This document shows, piece by piece, positions 6,455-50,524 of a stretch of 64,000 bases of DNA; the first letter of the stretch is position 1; each line of letters opens with the position of its first letter. Under the pieces are notes generated by a model that was not told the DNA's origin, ran no database searches, and saw only the letters and a list, made by a program, of their open reading frames with translations. Source of the DNA: a virus. Location of the stretch: positions 62,001 through 126,000 of IMG/VR virus record IMGVR_UViG_3300047462_000385, one strand, 5' to 3'. The position numbers and the translations under genes were made by a program.

Positions 6455-6826
6455 ATGTTGGATTTCATAATTGTTGTTGGTGCCATTTTTGGTCTAGCTT
6501 TCTTTATTAAAGAATCAGACGGTCCCTGGGGTTTGATGGCAAGAGCCCGTAATGAACTCTTTAAAAACCCTCATGTGGGTACATTCTTTTATAAATTACT
6601 GGATTGTTATTTCTGCCTTGGTTTCCATTGTGGTTGGTTCGTCTATTTATTGCACGAAAAAATATGGAGCCTCAATTTATTAATTTGCTGGGGTCTTGCT
6701 GGCGGCATGATCAGCCTTATAATGGACTTGATTTTGACGAGGCTCACGGCGCCACTGGCGTCAGAGCCCGAGCCTCCACTTGAGGCACCTCAACCACGTA
6801 AACGAACCAAGGTTAAAAATGGCTAA
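6455..6826 (+). CDS. DUF1360-like small membrane protein
   Basis: The 123-residue protein has an N-terminal hydrophobic segment (residues 3-18) and two more near 60-80 and 85-105. The motif CYFCLGFHCGW near residue 50 resembles the Cys-x-x-Cys-x-G-(F)W signature I know from the DUF1360 family of phage and Bacillus membrane proteins. The C-terminus is a proline- and charge-rich cytoplasmic tail. Its stop overlaps the PARP start by 8 bases. Function unknown. Confidence 0.7.
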   Translation: MLDFIIVVGAIFGLAFFIKESDGPWGLMARARNELFKNPHVGTFFYKLLDCYFCLGFHCGWFVYLLHEKIWSLNLLICWGLAGGMISLIMDLILTRLTAPLASEPEPPLEAPQPRKRTKVKNG

Positions 6827-8303
6827 GCCTGTTATCAGAGAAGATGAACTTCAAGTTTCCATCAAAGACGTTTTTAAGCGTTATACTCTAAATTTTACTG
6901 ACATCATCAATAACAATAACAAGTATTACAACTTGGAGTTGATTGAATCCAATGATGGTAAGTACTATATCTATACGCAGTATGGGCGTGTTGGTGTTTC
7001 TGGCGCCAAAGAGTATCGTGTCTGCGAAGATAAGGCTGATGCCGAAAAAGAAGCCGAGAAGATTATCAAGTCCAAAACCAAAAAGGGCTATGTTGAAGTC
7101 AAGTTGGTTAAGGCTGACGTTGGCTCTGATATGGGTAAATCTAAAGTAGACTCTACCGTTTCTGTGGAAGCTCTCAAACGATTGGGCGCAACTGTCACTG
7201 AGAAAGACGAATCGGCTAGTAAACTTCATGCGCAAGTGCAGGACTTAGTTCGTACTTGGTTCGGCGTTACACAAGAGTTCGTTGAATTGAACCTTGATAC
7301 CAACAAGTGTCCATTGGGTCAATTGTCGTTAACCCAAATTGATTTCGCCAAACAAATTCTGGATGAAGCTCGTAAGCAAATCCACGTCAAGAAGCCTGAC
7401 GTCAAGGAGTTGAATAAGCTTACCAGCCAATACTACTCTAACATTCCTCACGTCCTCCCTCGTAAGATTGATGCTGACGTATTACGTTTGGACGACGACG
7501 ATAAGCTCAATAAAGCTTTCGACATTCTCGACGTCTTTGCTGACGCAAAGAACGTTCAAGCAGTTATCTCCAAGAAGAGCGCAGTAGATTCGCAGTATGC
7601 GACTTTGAAAGCTGATTTGGAGTACGTTGATCCTTCCGATCCGGTGTTCAAGTGGATTGATAACATGCTACATGGTACCCGTGCAAGCAATCATGGTGGC
7701 TTGGGCAAACTAAAGACTCATAAAGTTTTCCGTGTTGCTCGTCACGATGAAGACAAGCATTGGATGGAAGCTTCCGAGAAGATTGCTAAGGAATGTGGCA
7801 AATACACTCCTTCTGAAGTATATGCTAAGTGGGTAAAAGAACGTATTGACATTACCAAAGAAATGGATGCCCTTTATAAGAAGGCAAACGTTCTTCCTGC
7901 ATGGCACGGTACTCGTCGTGCAAACATGATTGGTATCACAACCAAAGGTCTTTTGATTCGTCCTTCTGGCGTTATCCATGCTGGGTCTGCATTTGGGGAT
8001 GGAATCTACTGGGCAACCAATTCTACCAAGAGTATGAATTATTGTGATGTTAGAGGTAGCTACTGGGCTCAAGGAACAAATAAAACAGCATATCTCTTTT
8101 TAGCAGATGTGGCTTTTGGAAATCAAAAGATCACGCAACAGTCTCACTTCTATACCAAGAAGAATATTAACCCAGCACATAGTGTTTGGGCTAAAACAGG
8201 CGGGTCACTATATAATGAAGAATTGATTACATATACGCCAAGTGGACCAGAACAACAACATTGTATCCGCTATATTATAGAATTTGAAACGCAAGCCAAA
8301 TGA
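6819..8303 (+). CDS. Poly(ADP-ribose) polymerase with WGR, regulatory and catalytic domains
   Basis: From the ATG at 6819 (overlapping the upstream stop by 8 bases) the protein has 494 residues; a longer frame from 6780 adds 13 residues inside the previous gene and is less likely. Residues about 30-110 form a WGR domain (YYIYTQYGRVGVSG, with Tyr for the usual Trp). Residues about 135-260 fit the PARP helical regulatory domain (CPLGQLSLTQI is close to the PARP1/2 LGKLS segment). The catalytic ART domain has the full H-Y-E set: His363 in WHGTR, Tyr397 in GDGIYWA and Glu467 in YNEELITY. It should transfer ADP-ribose from NAD+, possibly as chains given the Glu, and the WGR suggests activation by nucleic-acid ends. 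No zinc fingers or BRCT are present, as in PARP2/3. Targets are unknown. Confidence 0.93.
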   Translation: MAKPVIREDELQVSIKDVFKRYTLNFTDIINNNNKYYNLELIESNDGKYYIYTQYGRVGVSGAKEYRVCEDKADAEKEAEKIIKSKTKKGYVEVKLVKADVGSDMGKSKVDSTVSVEALKRLGATVTEKDESASKLHAQVQDLVRTWFGVTQEFVELNLDTNKCPLGQLSLTQIDFAKQILDEARKQIHVKKPDVKELNKLTSQYYSNIPHVLPRKIDADVLRLDDDDKLNKAFDILDVFADAKNVQAVISKKSAVDSQYATLKADLEYVDPSDPVFKWIDNMLHGTRASNHGGLGKLKTHKVFRVARHDEDKHWMEASEKIAKECGKYTPSEVYAKWVKERIDITKEMDALYKKANVLPAWHGTRRANMIGITTKGLLIRPSGVIHAGSAFGDGIYWATNSTKSMNYCDVRGSYWAQGTNKTAYLFLADVAFGNQKITQQSHFYTKKNINPAHSVWAKTGGSLYNEELITYTPSGPEQQHCIRYIIEFETQAK

Positions 8304-14126: not shown

Positions 14127-14771
14127 ATGAAAATAGTATGTATTTCCGACACACATGAGCAAGAAGAGAAAATTCTTTTGCCGCCAGGCGATGTGCTTGT
14201 TCATGCTGGTGACATTACCTATCGTGGTGATATTGGCAAGCTATCCAAATTTTTGCGCTGGATGAGTGCCCAAAACTTCCAAAGTAAGATTATCATCTCT
14301 GGTAATCATGATTGGTGTTTCCAAAACAATAGCCGAAATATTGCGCTCAGATTGTGCGAAGAAAATGAAATCACCTATCTTCAAGACAGTGGTGTCAAGA
14401 TTGGTGGCATTAACTTTTGGGGAAGCCCTTGGCAGCCTTGGTTTCATAACTGGGCTTTCAATGCCATGAGGGGCAAGGATATTGCTCATCATTGGGCAAA
14501 GATTCCCGAGGATACCAATGTCCTGATTACACATGGTCCAGTTATGAATGTATTGGATGCAGCTCCACGTGGTGTTGCTGACGTAGAGCACGTGGGCTGT
14601 GAAGAGTTAGCAAAGCGTATTACAGAGTTGCCTAATCTAAAGGCTCATATCTGTGGACATATTCACTATGGATATGGCAAAATGCAACTTGCTAATGTGC
14701 AATTTGTTAATGCATCATGCTGTACCGAAGCATATGCTCCAACTAACCCTCCGATTACAATTGAGGTGTAA
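14127..14771 (+). CDS. Metallophosphoesterase of the MPPED-like group
   Basis: The 214-residue protein has the complete metal-site series: SDTH at residues 7-10, HAGDITYRG near 30, SGNHDW near 57, a THGP near 133 and CGHIHYGYG near 171. The CGHxHxGYG and WGSPWQPWF signatures resemble the MPPED1/239AB branch, which hydrolyses cyclic-nucleotide or other phosphodiesters in tested members. In a phage, cleavage of cyclic-nucleotide defence signals is one possibility, not shown here. Translation of the next small gene appears coupled. Confidence 0.85.
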   Translation: MKIVCISDTHEQEEKILLPPGDVLVHAGDITYRGDIGKLSKFLRWMSAQNFQSKIIISGNHDWCFQNNSRNIALRLCEENEITYLQDSGVKIGGINFWGSPWQPWFHNWAFNAMRGKDIAHHWAKIPEDTNVLITHGPVMNVLDAAPRGVADVEHVGCEELAKRITELPNLKAHICGHIHYGYGKMQLANVQFVNASCCTEAYAPTNPPITIEV

Positions 14772-14922: not shown

Positions 14923-15029
14923 AAGTCAAGCCGAAAGAAGTCTTACTTAATCTTCCAATTGTATTAATGTTCGATGACGGTACCAAAATTGCCGAATTTG
15001 CATCGAACATTAATACATTAATACATTGA
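14919..15029 (+). CDS. 36-residue ORF carrying a long inverted repeat
   Basis: This ATGA-overlapping ORF encodes 36 residues (MKVKPKEVLLNLPIVLMFDD...). Its 3' half contains a perfect 17-base inverted repeat. The next gene starts at a TTG overlapping this stop, in another frame. It may be the broken N-terminus of that gene, separated by a frameshift near the repeat, or a real micro-ORF. Confidence 0.4.
   Translation: MKVKPKEVLLNLPIVLMFDDGTKIAEFASNINTLIH
14960..15017. repeat. Perfect 17-bp inverted repeat with 24-base loop
   Basis: TGTATTAATGTTCGATG at 14960-14976 is the exact reverse complement of 15001-15017. No T-run follows, so it is not a typical terminator. It lies inside the 36-codon ORF just before a TTG-started gene, where it would fold in mRNA. 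Confidence 0.85.
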
Positions 15030-15382
15030 TTCATGGCAAAGTAAGAGTCAAAGTAGAAGAATTGGGCACGCTGGGCGGACAATTTGTCGGCATGTTCTAT
15101 CTACAACGTAATGGCGAATTTACAGAATTGAGTGAGCAGTTTATGCAAATGATTGAGCAAGAGCAACTAGGTATGCCTCCTCCTGAAGAAGGTGCAGACG
15201 ATGAGGAAGATAACCTAGATGAAGAGTTATCTTCCAAATATGATCCCTTCTATGGTGATGAGCTTCCATGTGAATGCGATCATCCATATTATCGCCACTT
15301 TGATAGTTATGATGAAATGGCTCCAGTGGGCTGCAAATACTGTGGCGTAGATGAATGTCCAGGATTTAGAGCGAAAAAATGA
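15026..15382 (+). CDS. Acidic protein with Cys/His cluster, TTG start
   Basis: The 118-residue frame begins at TTG, sharing TTGA with the upstream stop. It has an N-terminal strand region (VRVKVEELGTLGGQFVGMFYLQ), an acidic Asp/Glu linker at about 55-75 and a C-terminal CECDHPYYRH...CKYCGVDECPGF metal-binding-like cluster. That cluster resembles short zinc motifs seen in many phage and actinobacterial small proteins. No ATG is available in frame before residue 30, so the start is uncertain and a frameshifted fusion with the previous ORF is possible. Confidence 0.55.
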   Translation: MIHGKVRVKVEELGTLGGQFVGMFYLQRNGEFTELSEQFMQMIEQEQLGMPPPEEGADDEEDNLDEELSSKYDPFYGDELPCECDHPYYRHFDSYDEMAPVGCKYCGVDECPGFRAKK

Positions 15383-15756
15383 TTGGAGTGAAAATTAGAA
15401 GACGCTCACAATTTCCTAAATGTATTCGACACTTCAAAGAAGTTAGGGGAATTTGTATTGGTGAATGTGTAGAAAAATGTGAAATTAATAAGCATCATGC
15501 GGCACATGCACATTGCAATCATAATGATTATCCTGGTTGGATATGTTTGCGCCGTAAAACGCAATTAAGAGAAAAATTTACACTGCTACATGAGGTTGCA
15601 CATATTATTAGCTGTACTTCTAATAATATTCCATATCATGGTAAAAAATGGAGAGAAGTTGTTGTGGCAATTGGTGGCACATACCAATCATATAAGTCTT
15701 ACTGCAAACGATACATATACAAAGATTATTCACCAAGAAAACGAACTCCTAAATGA
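15379..15756 (+). CDS. SprT/WLM-like zinc metalloprotease
   Basis: The 125-residue protein has LLHEVAHII near residue 71 (HExxH) and, about 17 residues on, PYHGKKWREVV, where a third His and the following helix match SprT-like domains. An N-terminal Cys/His set (CIGECVEKC, HCNH) could bind a second zinc. SprT-type enzymes in cells degrade DNA-protein crosslinks; a small phage version could do likewise or cut a capsid or host protein. ATGA overlaps join it to genes on both sides. Confidence 0.7.
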   Translation: MIGVKIRRRSQFPKCIRHFKEVRGICIGECVEKCEINKHHAAHAHCNHNDYPGWICLRRKTQLREKFTLLHEVAHIISCTSNNIPYHGKKWREVVVAIGGTYQSYKSYCKRYIYKDYSPRKRTPK

Positions 15757-16223
15757 TAATAGCATTTACTGGACATCGACCTGACAAACTCGGCGGATAT
15801 AAGATTCCCAATCCAACTTATATTCGTGTTTGTAAGAAAATTGATGCCAAGCTCCGTGAACTAAAACCTGATAGAGTCATCTCTGGAATGGCTTTAGGTA
15901 TAGATCAATGGGCAGCTTTCATTGCTATTAAATTAAATATTCCCTTTACCGCAGCCGTGCCTTTTGAAAACCAAGATAATGCTTGGCCATTTCATTCACA
16001 ATACATTTACAGAATGTTATTGAGATTCGCAATTGAAAAAGTTGTTGTTTCTCCTGGCGGATATTCTGCGGCAAAAATGCAGATTCGCAATCAATGGATG
16101 GTGGACCATTGCGATATCTTAATCGCAATTTGGGACGGAACAGCAGGTGGTACTGCTAATTGTATCAATTATGCGAAATCTATTGGTAAGCAAATCATCT
16201 TTATCGACCCTAATGGAGAATAA
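15753..16223 (+). CDS. SLOG-superfamily (YpsA/DUF1273-like) nucleotide-binding protein
   Basis: The 156-residue Rossmann-like protein opens with FTGHRPDKLGGY (residues 5-16), then VISGMALGIDQWAA near 43, AAVPFENQ, and DILIAIWDGTAGGTANCINYA near 121. These are the hallmark strands of YpsA-type SLOG proteins, thought to bind nucleotide ligands such as NAD or ADP-ribose derivatives. The gene follows the SprT-like gene by ATGA overlap and directly abuts isocitrate lyase. It fits the ADP-ribose theme upstream, but its ligand is not known from the sequence. Confidence 0.82.
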   Translation: MIIAFTGHRPDKLGGYKIPNPTYIRVCKKIDAKLRELKPDRVISGMALGIDQWAAFIAIKLNIPFTAAVPFENQDNAWPFHSQYIYRMLLRFAIEKVVVSPGGYSAAKMQIRNQWMVDHCDILIAIWDGTAGGTANCINYAKSIGKQIIFIDPNGE

Positions 16224-17456
16224 ATGAGTGTCTATAAGCCTAATGAATTCCGTGTTTACTCTAAGCAAGATGTGGATAAATTAAGGGGTTCCTTTCAAAT
16301 CGAGTATACAATAGCAAAATTAGGTTGTGAAAGATTGTGGACTCTGTTTAATGTAGATCCATATGTAAAAGCTTTGGGAGCTTTAACTGGTAACCAGGCA
16401 GTTCAACAAGTAAAAGCTGGGCTCCATGCGATTTATCTTTCGGGCTGGCAAGTAGCGGCAGATGCTAATCTAGCTGGTCAAATGTATCCTGACCAATCTT
16501 TGTATCCTGCTAATAGCGTTCCAAGTGTTGTCAAAAAGATTAACTCAGCACTTCTTAGGGCTGATCAGATAGAGAGCGCGGAGGGATGTCCTCAAAGATA
16601 TTGGCTTGCTCCTATCGTAGCTGATGCCGAGGCAGGCTTTGGTGGACCTCTTAATTCTTTTGAATTAATGAAGGGTATGATTGAGGCGGGAGCTGCTGGC
16701 GTACATTTCGAGGATCAATTATCTTCTGAAAAGAAGTGCGGTCATATGGGCGGCAAGGTATTAGTCCCCATGAATCAATTTATAAAATCATTAGTCGCTG
16801 CTCGCCTAGCTGCCGATATCTGCGGTACCAGAACTATTATCATTGCCCGTACAGATGCCGATTCAGCCAAATTAATTACTACAGATGCTGACGAAAGAGA
16901 TCGTCCCTTCATTGTATCTTCTGAGCGTACCGACGAAGGTTTTTTCAAAATTAAGAATGGTGTAGAGTATTGTATTGCCCGAGGCTTGGCTTATGCGCCT
17001 TATGCGGATATGTTGTGGATGGAAACTTCTACGCCCGATATTGGTCAAGCTAAAGAGTTTGCAGATGAAATTCATAAAAATTTCCCAAACATGCCCTTGG
17101 CTTATAATTGCTCTCCTTCTTTCAATTGGAAAAAGAATTTATCAGAATCTCAAATTGCTTCTTTCCAAGATGAACTAGGAGCATTAGGATATAAATTCCA
17201 ATTCGTCACTTTGGCAGGATTTCATGCTCTAAATCATTCAATGTTTACTTTAGCGCAGGCATATAAGACAAGTGGCATGAGTGCCTACTCATCTTTGCAA
17301 GAAGCTGAATTCGAAAATGTCGCAGCGGGATATACAGCAGTAAAACACCAACGCGAGGTTGGTGCAAATTATTTTGACCAAATTTCCACTGTAATTTCTT
17401 CAGGCAGCTCTTCTACTTTAGCACTTCCTGACAGTACTGAAAAAGATCAGTTTTAA
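16224..17456 (+). CDS. aceA: Isocitrate lyase
   Basis: The 410-residue protein is nearly full length (E. coli 434). It has the catalytic signature KKCGHM at 170-175 with Cys172, ADAEAGFGG near 133, [11 protein letters not shown] just before the signature and the ARTDADSA metal/substrate segment near 208. YNCSPSFNW near 292 and [12 protein letters not shown] complete the active site. It would split isocitrate into glyoxylate and succinate. It starts on the base after the SLOG stop and is followed, after an HNH gene, by malate synthase, so both shunt enzymes are present. The gene appears intact. Confidence 0.96.
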
Positions 17457-17494
17457 TATCATCAACGTGCCTATCAATACTTCTGTATGATGGC

Positions 17495-17972
17495 ATGAAA
17501 AATACAAAAATATGTGGCGTCTGCAAAGAGGAAAAATCTGTTTCTGATTTTTTATTGTTTTAAGGATAATAGAAATAAGGGCGGTAAAGGTATTTATACT
17601 AAATATCTTTGTAAAAAATGCGACAAGAAAAATGGATTGAAGCAAAAAGAAAAGTCTCGTCGCAGGAAGAGACAGTTTTTATGGGAATATAAAAAATCTC
17701 ATCCGTGTGTAGACTGCGGTGAAAGTAATCCAATTTGTCTACAATTCGATCACGTGAGTGATATTAAGTTTATGAATGTAGGAATTTTGGCGAATGGTGG
17801 ACATTCTCTTCTACTACTTAAAAAAGAAATTGAAAAGTGCGTAATAAGGTGTGCCAGTTGTCATATGAAGAAGACTGCGAAAGACCAAAATTGGTATGAA
17901 GCAGAGCTTCGAATTGAAGGCTGTTCCATTGATGAATGGAATCAAAAATTTTCTAAAGCAGTTCTAAAATGA
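17495..17972 (+). pseudogene. HNH homing endonuclease with N-terminal frameshift
   Basis: ATG at 17495 opens a frame (CGVCKEEKSVSDF, a CxxC zinc half-site) that stops at 17561-17563. The remaining protein continues in another frame, open from before 17514, with CKKC, HPCVDCGESNPICLQFDHVSD and CASCHMKK. The two parts together match the full domain order of the gene at 22128, so a single-base change near the T-rich stretch at 17545-17560 has split the gene. Programmed frameshifting or internal initiation could still give a nuclease. It sits exactly between aceA and aceB and overlaps the aceB start by ATGA. Confidence 0.7.
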
Positions 17973-19540
17973 GAATAGAGATAGTTAATTTAGATAAATA
18001 TAAAGACACCATATTAACAGATGAAGCAATCTTTTTTGTGGTTGATTTGGTAAATAGGTTTGCGCCAAGAGTCAATGAGATATTATTTTCTCGCCAGGCA
18101 AGACAAGCCCTGTTGGATAGACATGATTTGCTCCCATACTTCTTACCAAATACCGCACACATCCGTGGTTCGGATTGGACTGTAGCTTCATTGCCTGCTG
18201 ACTTATTAGATAGGCGAGTAGAGATTACGGGACCAACCGAACGCAAAATGATCATCAATGCCCTTAATTCGGGCGCTAATGTGTTCATGGCTGACCTAGA
18301 AGACTCTAACTCTCCTACATGGGAAAACATGATGCAAGGTCAGGTTAACTTGATGGATGCCGTCCGTCGCACCATAACCTTCACATCAGACGCAGGTAAA
18401 GACTACAAACTCAATGAAAAAACTGCTGTCTTGATGGTCAGACCGCGTGGTTGGCATTTAGTCGAAAAGAACTTTATGTTAGACAATATGCCCATTCCAG
18501 CAGCTCTATTGGATTTTGGTTTATACTTTTTCCACAATGTTAAAGAATTGATGGAAAGAGGAACTGCTCCTTATTTTTACCTTCCTAAAATGGAAAGTTA
18601 TTTGGAAGCTCGTCTATGGAATGATATTTTTGTTTATTCTCAAAAGAAATTCAAAATTCCAAAAGGCACAATTAAAGCAACTTGTTTAATTGAAAACATC
18701 TATGCCGCATTTGAAATGAATGAATTTCTATGGGAATTAAAAGATCATTCAGCTGGCTTGAATTGCGGGCGTTGGGATTATCTTTTCAGCTTTATTAAAA
18801 AGTTTGCGAATAAACCGGAATTTATTCTACCCGATCGCGCTCAATTGACAATGGACAAAGGATTTCTTAATGCGTATGTCCAGCTCCTAATTCAGACTTG
18901 CCATAAGAGAAATGTCCATGCTATGGGCGGTATGGCTGCACAGATTCCAATTAAGGACGATCCAAAAGCCAATGAAGCTGCTATGGCTAAAGTAAAGGCT
19001 GACAAGCTACGCGAGGTCAAAGCTGGTCATGATGGAACGTGGGTAGCCCATCCTGGATTGGTTCCAGTAGCTCGTCAAATTTTTGACGAATACATGCCTC
19101 ACTCTAATCAAATTGGCAACATTCACTATTCAACAGTGACTGAACAAGATTTACTGGCTGTACCAGAAGGGACTTGTACTGAAGCTGGTTTACGTTATAA
19201 CATTCGCGTCGGCATCCGTTATTTGGCAGCATGGTTGTCCGGACAAGGCTGTGTCCCAATTTATAACTTAATGGAGGACGCTGCAACGGCAGAAATATCC
19301 CGCTCCCAGGTTTGGCAGTGGTTGCGACATAAGGTGGCAATAGTAACTGCCGATGAAGATAAACAAACACTAACTAAAGATTGGTTTCTAGAAATGGTTG
19401 ATGAGGAAATGATAACTCTTCAAAAAGAAACTAAGGATTTTGATAATGGATATAAAGCGCGTGATCTGTTTGTTTCATTATCTACAGCTGAACGATTCGA
19501 AGAATTTTTAACAACGGCAGCTTACCATTTCTTAAAATAA
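17969..19540 (+). CDS. aceB: Malate synthase A
   Basis: The 523-residue length matches malate synthase A (533). The family signature KDHSAGLNCGRWDYLF is present near residues 260-275, the catalytic Arg lies in VRPRGWHL near 157-163, and VFMADLEDSNSPTWENM near 105 is the conserved metal-site strand. Near the C-terminus, NLMEDAATAEISRSQVWQW holds the catalytic Asp. It condenses glyoxylate with acetyl-CoA to malate, completing the glyoxylate shunt started by isocitrate lyase. Its start overlaps the HNH gene by ATGA, consistent with that gene having inserted within an aceA-aceB pair. Confidence 0.96.
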   Translation: MRIEIVNLDKYKDTILTDEAIFFVVDLVNRFAPRVNEILFSRQARQALLDRHDLLPYFLPNTAHIRGSDWTVASLPADLLDRRVEITGPTERKMIINALNSGANVFMADLEDSNSPTWENMMQGQVNLMDAVRRTITFTSDAGKDYKLNEKTAVLMVRPRGWHLVEKNFMLDNMPIPAALLDFGLYFFHNVKELMERGTAPYFYLPKMESYLEARLWNDIFVYSQKKFKIPKGTIKATCLIENIYAAFEMNEFLWELKDHSAGLNCGRWDYLFSFIKKFANKPEFILPDRAQLTMDKGFLNAYVQLLIQTCHKRNVHAMGGMAAQIPIKDDPKANEAAMAKVKADKLREVKAGHDGTWVAHPGLVPVARQIFDEYMPHSNQIGNIHYSTVTEQDLLAVPEGTCTEAGLRYNIRVGIRYLAAWLSGQGCVPIYNLMEDAATAEISRSQVWQWLRHKVAIVTADEDKQTLTKDWFLEMVDEEMITLQKETKDFDNGYKARDLFVSLSTAERFEEFLTTAAYHFLK

Positions 19541-19546
19541 TCACGC

Positions 19547-19575
19547 TTGACACTCTAACTATAGTGGTTATATTA
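19547..19575 (+). promoter_or_regulatory. sigma70-like promoter for the tRNA cluster
   Basis: TTGACA at 19547-19552 and TATATT at 19569-19574 (16-base spacer) lie just upstream of the first tRNA gene at 19597, after the malate synthase stop. Placement and match support a start near 19580. Confidence 0.6.
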
Positions 19576-19596: not shown

Positions 19597-19683
19597 GGTC
19601 GTGTGGCGGAATAGGCAGACGCGGCAGTCTCAAAAACTGTTGGGAGCAATCCCGTGTGGGTTCGATTCCCACCATGACCACCA
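19597..19683 (+). tRNA. tRNA-Leu (anticodon CAA)
   Basis: Acceptor arms GGTCGTG and CATGACC pair (one G-T), with A discriminator and encoded CCA. The anticodon stem GCAGT/ACTGT holds loop CTCAAAA, giving CAA (codon UUG). A long variable arm (TGGGAGCAATCCC) and the leucine-like D-arm GGCGGAATAGGCAGACGCG are present. Confidence 0.92.
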
Positions 19684-19770
19684 TTAATTTTAAAATTGTC
19701 AGTCTTGACAATCATGTGCTGCCGACTTATCTTAGTGGGTGACATTCTCCGAGAAATCTGGGAATAAGAC

Positions 19771-19779
19771 GATATATAA
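19771..19779 (+). promoter_or_regulatory. GATATATAA motif before tRNA-Leu(CAG)
   Basis: GATATATAA lies 10 bases before the tRNA at 19789. The same core occurs at 21131, 26184, 32566, 35738 and 43810, near the starts of genes or tRNAs. It may be a phage promoter element. Confidence 0.35.
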
Positions 19780-19788
19780 AGGCATCAC

Positions 19789-19865
19789 GCTCAGGTGACG
19801 GAATTGGCATACGTACTACTCTCAGAAAGTAGGTTTTATGGGTTCGACTCCCATCTTGAGCACCA
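19789..19865 (+). tRNA. tRNA-Leu-like (anticodon CAG), short variable arm
   Basis: Acceptor GCTCAGG pairs with CTTGAGC (one G-T), followed by A and CCA. The anticodon stem CTACT/AGTAG holds CTCAGAA, anticodon CAG (codon CUG). The T-arm ATGGG/CCCAT is intact. The D-arm is leucine-like, but the variable region is only about 5 bases, unlike the neighbouring class II leucine tRNAs, so charging efficiency is uncertain. Confidence 0.8.
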
Positions 19866-19869
19866 AAAT

Positions 19870-19955
19870 GCTATCATGGCGGAACGGCAGACGCGGCAGG
19901 CTTAGAACCTGTTGGGAGTAATCCCGTGGGGGTTCAAGTCCCTCTGATAGCACCA
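19870..19955 (+). tRNA. tRNA-Leu (anticodon TAG)
   Basis: GCTATCA/TGATAGC acceptor pairs perfectly, with A discriminator and encoded CCA. The stem GCAGG/CCTGT holds loop CTTAGAA, anticodon TAG, reading CUA and other CUN codons. It has a long variable arm TGGGAGTAATCCC like the first leucine tRNA. Confidence 0.92.
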
Positions 19956-19960
19956 CTTAT

Positions 19961-20046
19961 GCTACTGTGGTGGAACGGCAGACACACAACGCTAAGAACG
20001 TTGCGCTCGTAAGGGCATGGGGGTTCAAGTCCCTCCAGTAGTACCA
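19961..20046 (+). tRNA. tRNA-Leu (anticodon AAG)
   Basis: GCTACTG pairs with CAGTAGT (terminal G-T), then A and CCA. The stem CAACG/CGTTG holds loop CTAAGAA, anticodon AAG (codon CUU, or CUN if A34 becomes inosine). A long variable arm (CGCTCGTAAGGGCA) is present. A34 in a leucine tRNA is uncommon in bacteria. Confidence 0.9.
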
Positions 20047-20054
20047 GATTCTAA

Positions 20055-20544
20055 ATGAGTAAGAACAATCAAAAATATTCCAAAGAACTATTAGAGCCAA
20101 TTGTTAAAAAAGTGTTTCTCTTACTAGCAGGTAATGAGAGAGCTTGGTTTAAAGATAAGTGGTGGCAGCAGTTCTCATTTGAAATCCAGATTTAAACTTT
20201 ATAACATAGATACCTCACATTTTACAGGTTTAGCTACTAACCAAGGCAAACCTCATAAAGGTGGATTTCCAAAATTATCGGCTGAAACTATTCTTGTTTT
20301 TGATAGACTGGGCGGTCGCAGAGATCATGGTTGGAAAATAAAACGAGCACTAGTAGAGTCTGGCGTTCCAGAACAGTGTGAATGTGGTTTGAAATCAGAA
20401 TGGAACGGTAAGAAATTAGTTCTTCAAGTTGATCATAAAAATGGTAATGGGCTTGATAATCGCAGAGAAAATCTTAGATTCCTTTGCCCTAACTGTCATT
20501 CACAAACAGATAATTTTTGTTCTAAAAATATGAAGGCTAAATAA
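20055..20544 (+). pseudogene. HNH endonuclease (DH-N-H type), N-terminus frameshifted
   Basis: ATG at 20055 begins a frame (KYSKELLEPIVKK) resembling the start of this HNH family, but the rest of the protein (MRELGLKISGGSSSHLKSR...) is in another frame starting at 20134. The latter, 136 residues, contains LVLQVDHKNGNGLDNRREN, LRFLCPNCHSQT and CECG, which form the HNH/zinc core. A shift near 20115-20133 therefore separates a DNA-binding start from the nuclease. The gene lies between the leucine tRNAs and the next tRNA group. The nuclease part might still be made from the ATG at 20134. Confidence 0.65.
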
Positions 20545-20733
20545 ATGTTATTCGGTGAAGAATGTGATTGTCATTGTCATGACGGCGACTTTGATGTTGC
20601 TCACATCATGCCTTGCTGCTATGAGTGCCCTACTTGTCACACAAATATTGATGTCGTGAATTATGAAACTCACGAGAAGAGATGTGGTGAAGAATATAAA
20701 GAATTACTCAGCAGCGTACTTGGAAAGAAGTGA
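20545..20733 (+). CDS. Small Cys/His-rich protein
   Basis: The 62-residue product has CDCHCHDGDFD, CCYECPTCH and HEKRC, giving up to nine Cys and several His in 50 residues; two zinc knuckles are likely. The ATG follows the HNH stop directly. Its 3' end overlaps the convergent gene at 20704. Function unknown. Confidence 0.6.
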   Translation: MLFGEECDCHCHDGDFDVAHIMPCCYECPTCHTNIDVVNYETHEKRCGEEYKELLSSVLGKK

Positions 20734-21111
20734 ATTGATTTCATCCAAAGCAGCTTTCTTGGATTTCTTATCTTTACCGCCGACATCAATCTTTGGATAC
20801 TTAGCTTTTACTTTTCTTGCTACTAAAGCTTGAAGACCCTTCAAAGAACCTTTGTACCACTCTGGAACAGAGCTGTATTGATGAACACGAGACAAAGCAT
20901 TACGTGCTTGATCGGCATTATTAATTGGGAAATGGTCTTTCTTGTCCTTGGCTTGTTCAGCTGGAACACAAACGTTGCCTCTATTACGAACTTCAGCCTT
21001 AGGATCTAGCTTCTTTTTCTCTTTCTTTGCAGCAGTTTTCTGCAAAGACTCCGAAGATAGCTCATCAAATTGAGTGGCTAAAGTTAATAATTGCTCGATT
21101 GTGTAGGACAT
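20704..21111 (-). CDS. Basic conserved-type phage protein
   Basis: The 135-residue antisense gene encodes a Lys-rich protein with a helical start, a basic stretch (KKEKKKLDPKAEVRNRG), and a C-terminal domain DHFPINNADQARNALSRVHQY...ALVARKVKAKYP. I recall that pattern from short proteins often fused to, or found near, phage structural or protease genes, but I cannot name a function. It overlaps the 3' end of the previous gene by 30 bases and lies inside the tRNA region. Confidence 0.65.
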   Translation of the reverse strand: MSYTIEQLLTLATQFDELSSESLQKTAAKKEKKKLDPKAEVRNRGNVCVPAEQAKDKKDHFPINNADQARNALSRVHQYSSVPEWYKGSLKGLQALVARKVKAKYPKIDVGGKDKKSKKAALDEINSLLSKYAAE

Positions 21112-21130
21112 TAAAAACCCCTTGAACTAG

Positions 21131-21139
21131 GATATATAG
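21131..21139 (+). promoter_or_regulatory. GATATATAG motif before the His/Glu tRNA group
   Basis: The motif lies about 40 bases upstream of the first tRNA-His and downstream of the divergent gene start at 21111. It is one of several identical cores in intergenic positions. Confidence 0.35.
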
Positions 21140-21178
21140 AAATATACTAATAATTAAGCAAGAATATTACCAGATTAT

Positions 21179-21255
21179 GGTGTCGTGAGGGAGCTGGTGA
21201 CCCCGGTTGGCTGTGAACCAATCTTCGACGGGATCGAAACCCGTACGACACCCCA
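21179..21255 (+). tRNA. tRNA-His (anticodon GTG), copy 1
   Basis: Acceptor GTGTCGT/ACGACAC pairs perfectly, with the extra G at -1 opposite a C discriminator, the histidine identity pair, and encoded CCA. The stem GTTGG/CCAAT holds loop CTGTGAA, anticodon GTG (CAU/CAC). Confidence 0.92.
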
Positions 21256-21266
21256 AGTAAGTTTAT

Positions 21267-21343
21267 GGTGTGCGTTTCCATTTGGTAATGGTCGGGTGTT
21301 GTGACCACTCGATAAGCGGGTTCGAATCCCGTCGCTCACCCCA
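21267..21343 (+). tRNA. tRNA-His (anticodon GTG), copy 2
   Basis: G-1 and C discriminator are again present. The acceptor GTGTGCG/CGCTCAC has one T-T mismatch at the fourth pair. The stem GGGTG/CACTC holds loop TTGTGAC with anticodon GTG. It differs from copy 1 throughout, so it is not a recent duplicate. Confidence 0.83.
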
Positions 21344-21352
21344 GTAAGTTAT

Positions 21353-21427
21353 GCTCCGTTCATCTAGTGGCTAGGATACTTGGTTTTCACCCAGGAAAAA
21401 GGGGATCGATACCCCTACGGAGTACCA
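21353..21427 (+). tRNA. tRNA-Glu (anticodon TTC), copy 1
   Basis: GCTCCGT/ACGGAGT acceptor (terminal G-T), A discriminator, CCA. The stem CTTGG/CCAGG holds TTTTCAC, anticodon TTC (GAA/GAG). T-arm GGGGATCGATACCCC is intact. Confidence 0.9.
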
Positions 21428-21429
21428 AC

Positions 21430-21504
21430 GGTCTGTTCGTCTAGCGGTTAGGACCCAGCCCTTTCAAGGCTGTCACACGAGTTCGATTCTCGTACAGATC
21501 ACCA
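21430..21504 (+). tRNA. tRNA-Glu (anticodon TTC), copy 2
   Basis: GGTCTGT/ACAGATC acceptor, A and CCA; the stem CAGCC/GGCTG holds CTTTCAA, anticodon TTC. It is separated from copy 1 by two bases, and its CCA is directly followed by the start codon of the next gene. Confidence 0.92.
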
Positions 21505-21702
21505 ATGAAAAAAGTATTAATTTTGTTAGCAGTTGCTTTTGTTATCGGATGTGCTTATAAAGTAGACATGAGTTCGGTTCCTAAGGGTGCAAAATTCTGT
21601 GGAAATGATGGTGAGTGTTCTCGTGGTGAGTATTGTGGATTTTACGGAGTTGATTCTCCTGCGGTTTGCAAACCAAAGCCACAAGAAATTAGATGGCATT
21701 AA
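21505..21702 (+). CDS. Small Cys-rich lipoprotein
   Basis: The 65-residue product has a Lys-Lys start, hydrophobic stretch and lipobox VIGC (residues 13-16), then a mature region with CGNDGECSRGEYCGF, whose cysteines could form disulfides. The ATG is the base immediately after the tRNA-Glu CCA end, so no ribosome-binding site exists outside the tRNA. After tRNA processing the message would be leaderless. An outer-membrane or periplasmic role, such as superinfection exclusion, is possible. Confidence 0.65.
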   Translation: MKKVLILLAVAFVIGCAYKVDMSSVPKGAKFCGNDGECSRGEYCGFYGVDSPAVCKPKPQEIRWH

Positions 21703-21733
21703 TCGGCTAATAAGCTGATATAATAGATACGAT

Positions 21734-21808
21734 GGTCCCTTCGTCTAGCGGCTAGGACGGCAGATTCTCAATCTGTTAACACGGGTTCGATTCCCGTAGG
21801 GATCACCA
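21734..21808 (+). tRNA. tRNA-Glu (anticodon CTC)
   Basis: GGTCCCT/AGGGATC acceptor with A and CCA. The stem GCAGA/TCTGT holds loop TTCTCAA, anticodon CTC (GAG). The sequence is close to tRNA-Glu copy 2, suggesting an origin by duplication with anticodon change. Confidence 0.9.
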
Positions 21809-21828
21809 AGAAACTTTGGTTTCTTTAT

Positions 21829-21905
21829 GTGCTCATAGCTCAACTGGACAGAGCGATCGGCTTCTACCCGATAGGTTGAGGGTTCAAATCCTTCTGGGCA
21901 TGCCA
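21829..21905 (+). tRNA. tRNA-Arg (anticodon TCT), copy 1
   Basis: GTGCTCA/TGGGCAT acceptor pairs with two wobble pairs, G discriminator, CCA. The stem ATCGG/CCGAT holds loop CTTCTAC, anticodon TCT (AGA/AGG). D-arm TAGCTCAACTGGACAGAGC is standard. Confidence 0.9.
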
Positions 21906-21922
21906 AGTAAGTTTTGTTTTAT

Positions 21923-21997
21923 GTCTCTGTAGTCTAATGGAAAGGCAGCTGCCTTCTAAGCAGTTTTATGTTGGTTCGAGTCCAATCAGAGATACCA
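21923..21997 (+). tRNA. tRNA-Arg (anticodon TCT), copy 2
   Basis: GTCTCTG/CAGAGAT acceptor, A discriminator, CCA; the stem GCTGC/GCAGT holds CTTCTAA, anticodon TCT. T-arm TTGGTTCGAGTCCAA is intact. The discriminator differs from copy 1. Confidence 0.88.
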
Positions 21998-22000
21998 AAT

Positions 22001-22086
22001 ACGCCCGTCGTAGCGGATCTACGTAAGAGTCTACGTAAGAGTCTACGAAACTCTTTATCTCGGTTCAACTCCGAGCGGGCGTGCCA
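22001..22086 (+). tRNA. tRNA-Arg (anticodon ACG) with 12-base internal duplication
   Basis: ACGCCCG/CGGGCGT acceptor is perfect, with G and CCA. The stem AGAGT/ACTCT holds loop CTACGAA, anticodon ACG. Between D-arm and anticodon arm the 12-base unit GTAAGAGTCTAC occurs twice in tandem; removing one copy restores normal spacing. The D-loop is also short, so the transcript may not be functional. Confidence 0.65.
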
Positions 22087-22092
22087 GAATTT

Positions 22093-22121
22093 GATACGAA
22101 ATGTATCAATAGTTTCGTATC
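22093..22121. repeat. 9-bp inverted repeat just before an HNH start codon
   Basis: GATACGAAA at 22093-22101 and TTTCGTATC at 22113-22121 are perfect complements with an 11-base loop, ending 6 bases before the HNH ATG. In mRNA it would form a hairpin beside the start, possibly limiting translation. Confidence 0.6.
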
Positions 22122-22127
22122 CTTTGT

Positions 22128-22565
22128 ATGAAGATTTGTACGAAGTGTAAAACAGATTATCCTACCCCATTAGAAGATCATTTCAATAAAAGAGCTGGCT
22201 CGAAAGACGGACTTCAGCATCGTTGCAAGAAATGTATAGCTGTTCTTCACAAAGAACATTACGAGTTACGTACAGATTATTACCTTGCGAAAGCAAAGAA
22301 ACGCAATTATAAAATTAGAGTAAGTAATTTGCAGTTCATGATTGATTACTTGAAAGAAAATCCATGTATTGATTGTGGAGAAACAGATCCGATAGTTTTA
22401 GAATTTGACCATCGTAGCGACAAGACTTATAATGTGAGCGAGATGCGAACGCTCAGCTTGGAGACAATAAAACAAGAAATTCAAAAATGTGACGTAAGGT
22501 GTGCCAACTGTCACAAAAAGAAAACAGCAAAGCAATTCAACTACTATAAAGGCATACGTTTGTAA
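22128..22565 (+). CDS. HNH homing endonuclease with zinc-ribbon N-terminus
   Basis: The intact 145-residue protein begins MKICTKCK, has a second HRCKKC half-site near residue 35, then PCIDCGETDPIVLEFDHRSDK near 77 and CDVRCANCHKKKTAK near 122: a zinc ribbon followed by the HNH nuclease core. It is closely similar in layout to the genes at 17495 and 31894. It sits between two tRNA-Arg(ACG) genes. No clear ribosome-binding site is seen, and a hairpin lies just upstream. Confidence 0.88.
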   Translation: MKICTKCKTDYPTPLEDHFNKRAGSKDGLQHRCKKCIAVLHKEHYELRTDYYLAKAKKRNYKIRVSNLQFMIDYLKENPCIDCGETDPIVLEFDHRSDKTYNVSEMRTLSLETIKQEIQKCDVRCANCHKKKTAKQFNYYKGIRL

Positions 22566-22569
22566 TTAT

Positions 22570-22648
<79 letters not shown>

Positions 22649-22830
22649 GGGCAGTCGTCGCTGTCATGCCGTTTCTTTTAAGGAAAGACGGGGCATGGAT
22701 CCCATTCGCAAGATGAGCGAATGAAGCATTTACATGCAGGAACCAGATATTCGGAATTTCATCATCGAGAAACGTTCGAGTCAAAGACCGCTCTTATTTT
22801 GAGATTGATCCCTTGACATAAGAGATGTAT
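22649..22830. other. Intergenic stretch with hairpins, no gene seen
   Basis: This 182-base gap holds a bulged hairpin (TGCCGTTTC...GAAAGACGGGGCA, about 22668-22697) and a short repeat ATTCGC/GCGAAT. No tRNA cloverleaf or convincing coding frame is seen. It could be a processing region or a decayed tRNA. Confidence 0.4.
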
Positions 22831-22905
22831 GTCCCTATAGTGAAAAGGATATCACGATCGTCTTCGAAACGATCAGTACAGGTTCGATTCCTGTTGGGGA
22901 TACCA
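22831..22905 (+). tRNA. tRNA-Arg (anticodon TCG)
   Basis: GTCCCTA/TGGGGAT acceptor (two wobbles), A, CCA. The stem ATCGT/ACGAT holds loop CTTCGAA, anticodon TCG (CGA/CGG). The D-arm is compact. It is the last tRNA and is followed by a terminator. Confidence 0.87.
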
Positions 22906-23397: not shown

Positions 23398-24600
23398 ATG
23401 AAACTATTTGAAGATTTAGAGGCGCGTGGGCTGGTGAAACAGGCAACCAACACGGAAAAGATCCGTGAACTTCTCAATGAAAAGAAAGTTACTTTTTACA
23501 TTGGATTTGATCCCACTGCAAACAGTTTGCATGTAGGGCACTTATTACAGATGATTACTGCTAAACGCTTGGCGAATGCTGGTCACATACCAATCATGTT
23601 AATTGGTGGGGCTACCGCACAGATTGGTGATCCGAGTGGAAAGAGTAGCATGCGCCCCATGTTAGAAGAACATGTGGTAGAAGCGAACATCAAAAGCATT
23701 ACTCCGCAGATTAAAAAGATTGTGGGCGTAGATGACTGGCAGATCATCAACAACAAAAGATTCTTCCAGCACTTTACTTTCCTGAGCTTCATTCGAGAGT
23801 TTGGTCCGTTATTCTCAGTAAACAACATGCTGCGAGCCGATTGCTTCAAAAGCAGATTGGAGACTGGACTTTCATTTTTAGAATTCAATTACATGCTCAT
23901 GCAGGCGGTTGACTTCTTCCGTCTATTCGTTTGGAGAGATTGTATCCTTCAAATCGGTGGCGATGATCAGTGGTCCAACATTTTGGCTGGTATTGACTTG
24001 ATTCATAAAAAAGAAGGCAAGGAATCTTTCGGACTGACAATCCCCTTGCTAACTACTTCGGATGGAACCAAGATGGGGAAAACCGAAAAGGGAGCAGTGT
24101 GGCTATCGGAAGAAGGGCAGACGAGCATCTTCGACTTTTTTCAGTTCTGGCGTAACATTCCAGACGCAGAGGTTATGAAGTGCTTTAAGCAGCTGACCTT
24201 CTTGTCGCTGCAGGAAATTGCTACGATACCCTTTACTACTGTAGAGGAAATCAATGCGGCAAAGAAAAGATTGGCTTGCGAATTAACTACCATCGTACAT
24301 GGTAAAGATGCAACCGATATCACGCTTGAGGTGGTAGAGTCTCTCTTTGAAAAGAAAGATCCGTCTATCATGGAAGCCGCGCCTATCGATGACAATACTA
24401 ATGTTTTAGACTTGATTGTTAAATGTGAATTTGCTAAGTCTCGTACTGATGCAAGAAATCTAATTAACAATAAAGGTATTACTATTAATACTCAAGTTTT
24501 AGATAATCCAACACTTATTATTTCTAAATCACAATTTGGCAAAGAGATTATAGTGAAAAAGGGTAAAAAGAGTTTTAAGAGATTTATGATTGAGGAATAA
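23398..24600 (+). CDS. tyrS: Tyrosyl-tRNA synthetase
   Basis: The 400-residue protein carries class I motifs: HVGH at residues 45-48 (HIGH), KMGKT at 225-229 (KMSKS), and GFDPTANSLHVGH typical of TyrRS. LEFNYMLMQAVDFF and LQIGGDDQWSN provide the tyrosine pocket with Asp and Gln. The C-terminal S4-like RNA-binding domain starts near residue 335 (SRTDARNLINNKGITIN). It should charge tRNA-Tyr. No tRNA-Tyr gene is in the window, so it may serve the host tRNA or one encoded elsewhere. All core motifs are intact. Confidence 0.94.
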   Translation: MKLFEDLEARGLVKQATNTEKIRELLNEKKVTFYIGFDPTANSLHVGHLLQMITAKRLANAGHIPIMLIGGATAQIGDPSGKSSMRPMLEEHVVEANIKSITPQIKKIVGVDDWQIINNKRFFQHFTFLSFIREFGPLFSVNNMLRADCFKSRLETGLSFLEFNYMLMQAVDFFRLFVWRDCILQIGGDDQWSNILAGIDLIHKKEGKESFGLTIPLLTTSDGTKMGKTEKGAVWLSEEGQTSIFDFFQFWRNIPDAEVMKCFKQLTFLSLQEIATIPFTTVEEINAAKKRLACELTTIVHGKDATDITLEVVESLFEKKDPSIMEAAPIDDNTNVLDLIVKCEFAKSRTDARNLINNKGITINTQVLDNPTLIISKSQFGKEIIVKKGKKSFKRFMIEE

Positions 24601-46173: not shown

Positions 46174-46888
46174 GAGAACTATTATAGTTGGAGACATCCA
46201 CGGCTGTGTGGATGAGTTTGATGAGCTAATTAAGAAGCTTAACTATGACAAAGAGTCAGATAGGCTCATTTTGTTAGGTGACTTGATTGATCGTGGTCCT
46301 GATTCTGTTGGCATGGTTAAACGTGCTAGAGAAATGAATTTGGAATGTGTTATGGGCAACCATGAATACAACTTCATGAAGTGGTACAAAAGCTTTGGCT
46401 CTCAGAACGCAGTTTATGATCGACACCCTCACTACACACAATTCTCAGATGAGGATGTGAATTATATTGCTCGTATGTCTTCTTACATTGTATTGGAAGA
46501 ATTTAATACTATTGTGGTTCATGCTGGACTAAGAGCAGGCATCAAATTACAAGATCAAAAGAAAGATGATCTGTACTACATTAGGTACATGGATCATGAT
46601 AACAAATTTATTAGCTTGAAGAAAATTAGCAAGCTTGGAATAGAAGCAACGGGCGCGCACTTTTGGACTGAGTTCTGGGATGGTCCAGAATCAGTAGTGT
46701 ATGGGCACAACGTACATTCATATGAAGATCCGCTTATTGAAGAGGTGGTACCGGGTGTGATGTGTTATGGTTTGGATACTGGCGGCTGCTTTGGCGGCAG
46801 GCTAACAGCCTTAATCTTAGAGACTAAGGAAATTGTTCAGGTTCAAGCAAAGCGGACATACTACAAGTCAGACTTCGAAATAAAATGA
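46163..46888 (+). CDS. PPP-family phosphatase (lambda-PP/ApaH-like)
   Basis: The 241-residue protein has the three PPP hallmarks GDIHGC near residue 11, GDLIDRGPDS near 38 and GNHEYNF near 64, then VVHAGL near 113 and a late YGHNVHS near 180. Lambda phosphatase is 221 residues and removes phosphate from proteins; ApaH-like members cut dinucleoside polyphosphates or NAD-capped RNA. Sequence alone does not choose between them. The next gene overlaps by 4 bases. Confidence 0.9.
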   Translation: MGIKRTIIVGDIHGCVDEFDELIKKLNYDKESDRLILLGDLIDRGPDSVGMVKRAREMNLECVMGNHEYNFMKWYKSFGSQNAVYDRHPHYTQFSDEDVNYIARMSSYIVLEEFNTIVVHAGLRAGIKLQDQKKDDLYYIRYMDHDNKFISLKKISKLGIEATGAHFWTEFWDGPESVVYGHNVHSYEDPLIEEVVPGVMCYGLDTGGCFGGRLTALILETKEIVQVQAKRTYYKSDFEIK

Positions 46889-47238
46889 AATATTCAGACG
46901 CCCAACTAATCAGTCTAGCAAAAGCAAATCCTAAAGAGTTAGTACGAATTTTAACCAGCCCCAATGCCGACATGAGATTGTTGGCTTCTGGGGCTGAAAT
47001 TTTAGGAGGCGAAGTAACTGATGAAATGTTGGTCGTCCCTGTATTTAGACAGCTTCTCAAACATGTGAACGCCATTGTTAGAGAAGGTGCTGCTATTGGA
47101 GTTTCTACTTTTTATTTGGATAGAAAGCCGCCTCAAGATATATTGGATAGATTAAAGGCATTGGCTACCAATGATCCTTCACCAACTCTAAGAGAGTATG
47201 CTAAGGGTGTGGTAGCAGATTTTGAGATAATCAAATGA
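46885..47238 (+). CDS. HEAT-repeat-like small protein
   Basis: The 117-residue product reads as three HEAT-like helix pairs (PNADMRLLASGAEILG, VNAIVREGAAIGVSTFY, PSPTLREYAKGVVADF). It sits between the phosphatase and macrodomain 2 with ATGA overlaps on both sides and may serve as an adaptor. Confidence 0.6.
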   Translation: MKYSDAQLISLAKANPKELVRILTSPNADMRLLASGAEILGGEVTDEMLVVPVFRQLLKHVNAIVREGAAIGVSTFYLDRKPPQDILDRLKALATNDPSPTLREYAKGVVADFEIIK

Positions 47239-47750
47239 AAGAAATTAAGAAAGATCTTTTCGAGTGTATCGCTGATGATGGTGTAGATGCTATTTGTGTC
47301 ACTACCAATGGAAACTATACTGTTGGCGGATTAGCTTGCATGGGTGGTGGATGTGCTGGTGTAGCTGCAAGACGTTGGCCAGAAGTTCCTAAAAGATTAG
47401 GAAAGCTACTTAAGCAGTATCATAATAACATTCCTTTTGTTATTGGCGCTGTTGATGCTCAAGGAAATCATTTAGATATGACACCAAAGATGATTAAGGA
47501 TCATAAATATAAGTGTTTAATCTTTAGCTTCCCAACTATTAATAATTTGGGAAAGGAATCCAATATTCAATTAATTAAACAATCTGCAACGATTATGGCG
47601 GACTACGCCGAACAATTTGATCTTAAGCAAATAATCCTGCCGAGACCTGGCGTAGGGATCGGGGGATTGACTTGGGCGGAAGTGAAGCCAGTTATTGCTC
47701 CAATCTTGGGCGATAGATTTACCATTGTTTCGTTTGATCATGAGGAATGA
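47235..47750 (+). CDS. Second macrodomain protein
   Basis: The 171-residue protein has AICVTTNGNYTVGGLACMGGGCAGVA near 20-45, the first macrodomain loop, AARRWPEVPKRLG and RPGVGIGGLTWAEVKPVI near 147, closely matching the GxGLGGLxW...V loop of phage and plasmid macrodomains. It is diverged from the one at 10235. It would bind or hydrolyse ADP-ribose or related nucleotides. It overlaps the HEAT-like gene by ATGA. Confidence 0.85.
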   Translation: MKEIKKDLFECIADDGVDAICVTTNGNYTVGGLACMGGGCAGVAARRWPEVPKRLGKLLKQYHNNIPFVIGAVDAQGNHLDMTPKMIKDHKYKCLIFSFPTINNLGKESNIQLIKQSATIMADYAEQFDLKQIILPRPGVGIGGLTWAEVKPVIAPILGDRFTIVSFDHEE

Positions 47751-47751
47751 T

Positions 47752-47922
47752 ATGAATAAAAGAAAAGCAATATGGTTTATTAGCGAAGCAGCATTATTTG
47801 CTATGTGGGTAGTATTTGGTTGGGGCTTATCTGGAAGCTGGATAATCGGAATTGTGGCAGCAGTAGTTCTAACTGCAGTTCAGTATGCTACTGATAAAGC
47901 CTTTAATGTTGTTCATTATTAA
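47752..47922 (+). CDS. Small two-span membrane protein
   Basis: The ATG at 47752 has GAGGAATG upstream. The 56-residue product has two hydrophobic segments (AIWFISEAALFAMWVVFGWGL, WIIGIVAAVVLTAV) and ends in a His-rich tail. A longer frame from 47695 overlaps the macrodomain and is unlikely. Confidence 0.55.
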   Translation: MNKRKAIWFISEAALFAMWVVFGWGLSGSWIIGIVAAVVLTAVQYATDKAFNVVHY

Positions 47923-47931
47923 GAGCGAATT

Positions 47932-48411
47932 ATGCCGACCGAGAAAATCAAACAACGAATAGAACATCTAGAATTAGATTTAGCCAAACATAATGCGGTG
48001 AAAGATAAGTTTCCTGACACTACTGTTAATTGGATGGGAGAATTTTCTTCCAAAACAGTTAATCAAAACTACACTGATTTTGAATTCGAAACTTGGAATA
48101 AAATGTTGTATGTGAGCCCTTATTTTAATTTAGAATTCACTCACAATAATAAATCAGAAACAGTAAAGATTTTCTCTACGCCACGCCGTAATAAACTAGT
48201 TTATGTTGATCATACTTTTGAGGCGGGAAATTACAGGAGAATTATTAGATTTTCCAAAATGATGGCTAATTTCAAACAGCGTAATTTTAGTGAGAAGATG
48301 TTTAATACGTGTAGAACAGAAATTATGAATTTTATCAAAGAGCACCCTGGCATATCTTTAGATAAAAAGTATATGGAACCCAGATTACAAAAACTTTTGT
48401 TATTTGTATAA
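47932..48411 (+). CDS. Hypothetical protein
   Basis: The 159-residue product is mixed alpha/beta with charged helices at both ends and aromatic-rich middle strands (YVSPYFNLEF). The C-terminus (EPRLQKLLLF) resembles the ends of the helical proteins at 29874 and 34713. No recognised family. It follows the membrane gene by 9 bases. Confidence 0.5.
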   Translation: MPTEKIKQRIEHLELDLAKHNAVKDKFPDTTVNWMGEFSSKTVNQNYTDFEFETWNKMLYVSPYFNLEFTHNNKSETVKIFSTPRRNKLVYVDHTFEAGNYRRIIRFSKMMANFKQRNFSEKMFNTCRTEIMNFIKEHPGISLDKKYMEPRLQKLLLFV

Positions 48412-48419
48412 AGGAAGAT

Positions 48420-48587
48420 ATGAAATTACTTAGATGCAAATACTGTCGTGGCGAAGTGGAAATAGTTGGCAATGATCGTGCCATTAATAAAAAAGTAAAG
48501 TGTAATCAGTGTGGCTTTACCAATGCTGATGCTACTGATAAAAAAGAGCCTGAAGTCGTAATAATTAAGAAACGTCCTGCGCAATAA
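48420..48587 (+). CDS. Small zinc-ribbon protein
   Basis: ATG at 48420 follows AAGGAAG. The 55-residue product has CKYC and CNQCGF, a two-CxxC zinc ribbon, and a basic C-terminal tail. Its 3' end overlaps the convergent Fcl gene by 23 bases. It is not obvious from length alone, but the motif and ribosome-binding site support it. Confidence 0.6.
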   Translation: MKLLRCKYCRGEVEIVGNDRAINKKVKCNQCGFTNADATDKKEPEVVIIKKRPAQ

Positions 48588-50504: not shown

Positions 50505-50524
50505 TTAATATTCCTTTATCTTGA

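Follow-up and report, generated by a model that had tools for sequence, protein, structure and literature searches.

Isocitrate lyase and malate synthase genes in the genome of an uncultured jumbo tailed phage

The window is a stretch of 64,000 nucleotides, bases 62001–126000 of the 130,362-base IMG/VR record IMGVR_UViG_3300047462_000385. It carries genes for both enzymes of the glyoxylate shunt, isocitrate lyase (ICL) and malate synthase A, within a run of co-directional genes (Table 1).

Table 1. Features in and around the aceA–aceB region, in window positions
Feature	Position	Strand	Remarks
Calcineurin-like phosphoesterase	14127..14771	+	PF00149, E 3.5e-13; upstream conserved neighbour; 49% identical to the gene in the same position in L012
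118-aa ORF, no known function	15026..15382	+	opens the tight gene run 15026–19540; 54% identical over 52 aa to an L009 ORF
SprT-like ORF, 125 aa	15379..15756	+	PF10263, E 4e-5, just below the gathering cut-off; 4-bp overlap with the SLOG gene
SLOG/YpsA-like protein, 156 aa	15753..16223	+	PF06908, E 4e-14; stop codon abuts the aceA ATG
aceA, isocitrate lyase (ICL)	16224..17456	+	410 aa, ATG start, full length
HNH-like ORF, 152 aa	17514..17972	+	GTG start; between aceA and aceB; final 4 bases overlap the aceB start
aceB, malate synthase A	17969..19540	+	523 aa, full length
Four tRNA-Leu genes (CAA, CAG, TAG, AAG anticodons)	19597..20046	+	just downstream of aceB; ARAGORN, Rfam

The assignment of both enzymes was made against the NCBI equivalog cut-offs. 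AceA scores 709.3 bits with the isocitrate lyase profile NF011645 (cut-off 562), its residues 10–410 aligning with positions 28–428 of 430, and 554.6 bits with TIGR01346 (cut-off 275.9). The Pfam domain PF00463 is found, and residues 10–410 match solved ICL structures, the top one being 6lrp (E 2.8e-186). The catalytic motif KKCGHM is present, and the remaining active-site segments inspected are also unbroken. The protein is an ICL and not a methylisocitrate lyase; the catalytic KKCGH loop and the metal- and substrate-binding segments are kept, and prpB models score far under their cut-offs. AceB reaches 768.3 bits with the malate synthase A model TIGR01344 (cut-off 594.5), with positions 1–510 of 511 aligned. 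It has the N-terminal, TIM-barrel and C-terminal domains (PF20656, PF01274 and PF20659) and a full-length match to the solved malate synthase 3cux (E 3.9e-198), and the AGLNCGRWDYLF and MEDAATAEISR segments are unbroken. An earlier note on this DNA had described a near-full-length isocitrate lyase with KKCGHM and a near-full-length malate synthase with AGLNCGRWDYLF. Both descriptions are right, as are the positions given; the profile scores of the two enzymes lie far over their cut-offs and exclude chance.

Both genes are under strong purifying selection among related phages, with dN far under dS. Set against the 252-kb record UViG_3300033402_000292, aceA has a dN of 0.14 and a dS of about 2.5, close to saturation, while aceB has a dN of 0.19 with saturated dS. 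Despite these near-saturated synonymous sites, AceA and AceB are 73–81% identical between the window phage and this relative.

The 118-aa ORF overlaps the SprT-like gene, which in turn overlaps the SLOG/YpsA-like gene. The last of these also lies upstream of aceA in L009 (70%) and in the 327-kb record L012 (58%), and the SLOG–aceA neighbourhood is present in three record lineages. In the 252-kb relative the SLOG–aceA junction is as in the window phage, and aceA and aceB overlap (TAATG). The overlap is recorded for the relatives L009 and L010, with no HNH-like ORF in between. In the window phage there is a gap of 512 bases between the two genes, and in it lies the HNH-like ORF, which the earlier note passed over. 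This contains a zinc/HNH-like pattern read by eye (CVDCG...FDHV...CASCH), and a Pfam search with it gave zero matches. Over 93 aa it shares 45% identity with an ORF located elsewhere in the 252-kb relative, and that ORF in turn is 57% identical to another ORF of the window phage. From its sequence it is probably a free-standing homing endonuclease. Because it resembles ORFs elsewhere in the relative, insertion of such an endonuclease into the aceA–aceB pair is the simplest reading, and the insertion may have weakened the coupling of aceB to aceA. The bacterial-type aceBA order, with aceB upstream and adjacent, is absent from the window phage and its close relatives, all of which run aceA–aceB. 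Sigma-70-type promoters and terminators around the locus show no excess over shuffles; a sigma-70-like site at 19547–19574 matches at 11 of 12 positions, although shuffles contain sites of this kind just as often as the region does. The tRNA-Leu genes belong to a cluster of 13 tRNAs (19597–22905) interleaved with HNH-like ORFs, in which His, Glu and Arg tRNAs are repeated (ARAGORN). An Rfam search of the window found tRNAs and nothing else. A tyrosyl-tRNA synthetase-like protein is encoded at 23398–24600 (60% in the relative).

The phage origin of the locus is borne out by an overlapping record. From base 15832 to its end (114.5 kb) the 130-kb record is 100% identical to the 204,190-base record UViG_3300049215_000529, in opposite orientation, with one stretch inside that overlap at 99.98% identity. 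The rest of the 204-kb record encodes a large terminase subunit (phrog_675, 7e-55) and a portal protein (phrog_16240, 1.6e-51); a head-maturation-protease domain, a phage-type DNA polymerase III alpha, SbcC/SbcD-like proteins and a topoisomerase are also found on that record. Searches of the 130-kb record with Pfam Terminase_6N and T4 Gp23 gave no match, and the structural genes fall outside the 130 kb and belong to another type than those searched. The 252-kb record is colinear over much of its length (152 of 258 predicted proteins matched). The earlier note had proposed to look for capsid and terminase genes in the flanking genome, and held that a chromosomal or chimeric contig without structural genes would overturn its reading. 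The flanking sequence has supplied terminase, portal and head protease. Other records show the locus in synteny, and this, together with the 100% overlap of two records, rules out a chimeric or chromosomal origin. Thus aceA and aceB lie on a genome with viral hallmark genes and not on a host flank, as is required of auxiliary metabolic genes. Among deposited phages the nearest terminases share only about 25% identity with that of the window phage, so that within the phage collection searched the lineage stands without close relatives.

Where do the genes come from? One clade of the ICL tree (support 99) unites the window phage, its 252- and 80-kb relatives and the 327-kb record, and with a 157-kb record added the support is 98/99. 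The 327-kb record shares the SLOG–aceA neighbourhood and has a terminase that is 73% identical, but aceB is missing; either it has been lost in that phage, or else aceB was gained separately. The 157-kb record (L077/G017) has a divergent aceA with aceB 5.4 kb away, both grouping with the genes of the window, and a terminase search of this record found none. Its ICL (L266 12182–13444) has altered active-site segments (including DMDNGFST; MYPDQSLYP is replaced) with KKCGH intact, a pattern of residues that possibly reflects a changed activity.

The malate synthase of the window nests within the Myxococcota (support 97/86 and 99/98), apart from the remaining viral malate synthases, which cluster with one another (99/97); a single clade for all of them is disfavoured, although not formally rejected (AU p = 0.062). 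Myxococcota such as Sorangium and uncultured Polyangiaceae have ICL about 70–72% and malate synthase 60–64% identical to the proteins of the window phage, and on bacterial contigs the order is usually aceB–aceA, unlike the window phage. A single ICL clade of the viruses carrying the pair was rejected (p = 0.0002). A 361-kb record belongs to the same lineage by its terminase (74% identical), yet its ICL groups with those of other phages (100/99) and lies in a different genomic neighbourhood, which suggests repeated capture. Forcing this ICL into the window clade gives p = 0.097 and is not formally rejected, but the bootstrap places it elsewhere. On balance we lean, by a small measure, towards the view that large phages have repeatedly acquired the shunt, or ICL alone, as a module that is widespread among them, the aceB of the window coming from a Myxococcota-like donor apart from that of other phages, and the 361-kb relative having taken an ICL of another clade into another place in its genome. 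If this is true, diverting isocitrate would be a strategy on which large phages in general have converged, and not an oddity.

How common are these genes in viruses? A single-protein query found 31 viral contigs with relatives of ICL. An alignment query found 536 viral stretches with ICL and a separate scan 33 with malate synthase. The last two counts come from differing search patterns, and all three take in fragments as well as some contigs of bacterial or proviral origin, such as L020 and L018, which adjoin Brevibacillus. ICL is present in the same locus at 30 of the 33 viral malate synthase loci. Most viral pairs are ordered aceB–aceA, and the window lineage aceA–aceB. Among 25 larger ICL-bearing records analysed (G000, G001 and OQ984149 among them) 20 have a phage terminase; eight of these also have malate synthase (G001, G002, G018, G019, G021, G022, G027 and G028), and 12 are without it. 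Neither citrate synthase nor aconitase was found on any of the 25. The aceA matches in two sets of 'phage' records, AGRM/AFYI (500-kb Salmonella records) and OR84/OR85 (unannotated pieces of 1–5 kb), look bacterial-chromosomal and were not counted as phage.

The earlier note knew of no described phage with the whole shunt, and in this it was wrong. The complete 179-kb T4-like environmental genome TARA_ERS478052_N000008 has an aceBA operon, described by Nishimura et al. (2017; PMC5332604) as, to their knowledge, the first in any complete viral genome. In Pacific Ocean viromes aceA and aceB gene families had already been found by Hurwitz et al. (2013; PMC4053976), who proposed that these genes power the glyoxylate shunt while a cell is infected. 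Studies of an Antarctic ice shelf (PMC10721903) and of Tibetan lake sediment (PMC12783922) likewise list viral isocitrate lyase. Like the window phage, TARA_ERS478052_N000008 has both shunt enzymes on a large tailed-phage genome together with nucleotide-sugar and LPS genes (its Gmd and WcaG). By its description it is marine, with adjacent aceB–aceA and T4-like structural genes, whereas in the window phage aceA and aceB are split by the HNH-like ORF, there is no Gp23-type capsid match, and the terminase is of the phrog_675 type. The Pacific virome genes are likewise ICL and malate synthase A of the viral fraction, known by detection of gene families in viromes. A further annotated genome, that of phage C48C1 (OQ984149, Kyanoviridae, 156 kb), has an ICL that is 55% identical and labelled hypothetical protein; unlike the window phage it has no malate synthase, and its ICL falls in a distant clade. 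This gene (L049 11980–13233, OQ984149 CDS0055) could be re-annotated. What is new here is a separate, unusually well-supported lineage and its context, the pair itself having been known since 2017. The value of the lineage lies in how clean its genomic evidence is, with structural genes, synteny, the HNH insertion and an aceB that was gained or lost.

The glyoxylate shunt is a carbon-sparing detour of central metabolism. ICL cleaves isocitrate to succinate and glyoxylate, and malate synthase joins glyoxylate with acetyl-CoA to give malate; the shunt thereby yields C4 acids and spares carbon for the synthesis of nucleotides and amino acids. Auxiliary metabolic genes mostly touch single steps. 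When a phage has both committed steps of a carbon-conserving pathway, strongly selected and seemingly gained on more than one occasion, the implication is that the partitioning of isocitrate limits phage yield in some hosts.

We hold with good confidence that aceA and aceB serve an uncultured jumbo tailed phage as functional auxiliary metabolic genes, ending a short co-directional run that was later broken by the HNH-like ORF. In the infected cell the phage ICL would cleave isocitrate made by the host, and the phage malate synthase would condense the resulting glyoxylate with acetyl-CoA, so skipping the two CO2-losing steps of the TCA cycle. Virion production would gain C4 acids (oxaloacetate leading to aspartate, pyrimidines and gluconeogenic carbon) and respiratory electrons. 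Since neither citrate synthase nor aconitase was found on the 25 records of the phage and its relatives, the shunt must draw on the TCA cycle of the host, and would rely on those two host enzymes. Its effect would be greatest in cells living on carbon that yields acetyl-CoA, or short of carbon. The likeliest main benefit is a net supply of C4 acids and saved carbon for nucleotides and amino acids during takeover. The host could conceivably live on acetate or fatty acids, as the earlier note suggested, though this has no support.

In the light of the many phages with ICL alone, the benefit may come mainly from the ICL step. In such phages either a complete shunt must depend on malate synthase of the host, or the ICL has another purpose. 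In a stronger form, ICL would be the selected step, providing succinate as a source of electrons and glyoxylate for glycine and one-carbon units for purines, with aceB an accessory that clears excess toxic glyoxylate where the host lacks the enzyme. The predominance of ICL in the viral census (536 stretches against 33, with differing search patterns), the 12 terminase-bearing records with ICL and without malate synthase, and the 327-kb relative that keeps the SLOG–aceA neighbourhood without aceB are all consistent with this. Yet aceB in the window lineage is itself strongly purified by selection and overlaps aceA in a relative, and the proximity of ICL at 30 of 33 viral malate synthase loci indicates that the pair stays together in many phages. 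We therefore regard this form as unlikely. The contrast between phages with ICL only and those with the pair renders the metabolic question testable.

Less probable still is that the enzymes aid the host through a long, slow or lysogenic or pseudolysogenic infection rather than serving lytic virion output. The argument was itself made for the aceBA virus (PMC5332604), and the window phage, like that virus, pairs the shunt with nucleotide-sugar and glycosyltransferase genes. But no integrase was noticed, though without a dedicated search, and NAD salvage, tRNAs, RNA ligase, a polymerase of its own and DNA ligase are in keeping with a large phage that is lytic and seizes control of its cell. That the genes are functionless cargo recently captured from a host, or that the assembly is chimeric, is very improbable, for although the branching of the malate synthase within Myxococcota means capture from bacteria at some time, the two overlapping records agree at 100%, the locus recurs in records from other samples, the proteins have stayed 73–81% identical while synonymous sites are near saturation, and the chimera is already refuted by synteny.

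Other genes of this phage deserve mention. The window has nucleotide-sugar genes at 48565–51442, by eye epimerase/dehydratase genes, and in the same region an 801-aa fusion of methyltransferase, GT2 and family-6 glycosyltransferase domains (61511–63916). A complete NAD+-dependent DNA ligase with adenylation, OB, HhH and BRCT domains (982–2856) is 85% identical in the relative. At 6780–8303 a protein has WGR, PARP regulatory and PARP catalytic domains in the order of DNA-dependent PARP1-type enzymes, with a 74% identical homologue in the 252-kb relative. Upstream of the window, at bases 46799–49323 of the record (L005 6799–9323), a nicotinamide phosphoribosyltransferase and a nucleotidyltransferase–NUDIX fusion form an NAD+ salvage pair. 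Together with the PARP and the NAD-dependent ligase, this pair suggests heavy use of NAD+ or counter-defence.
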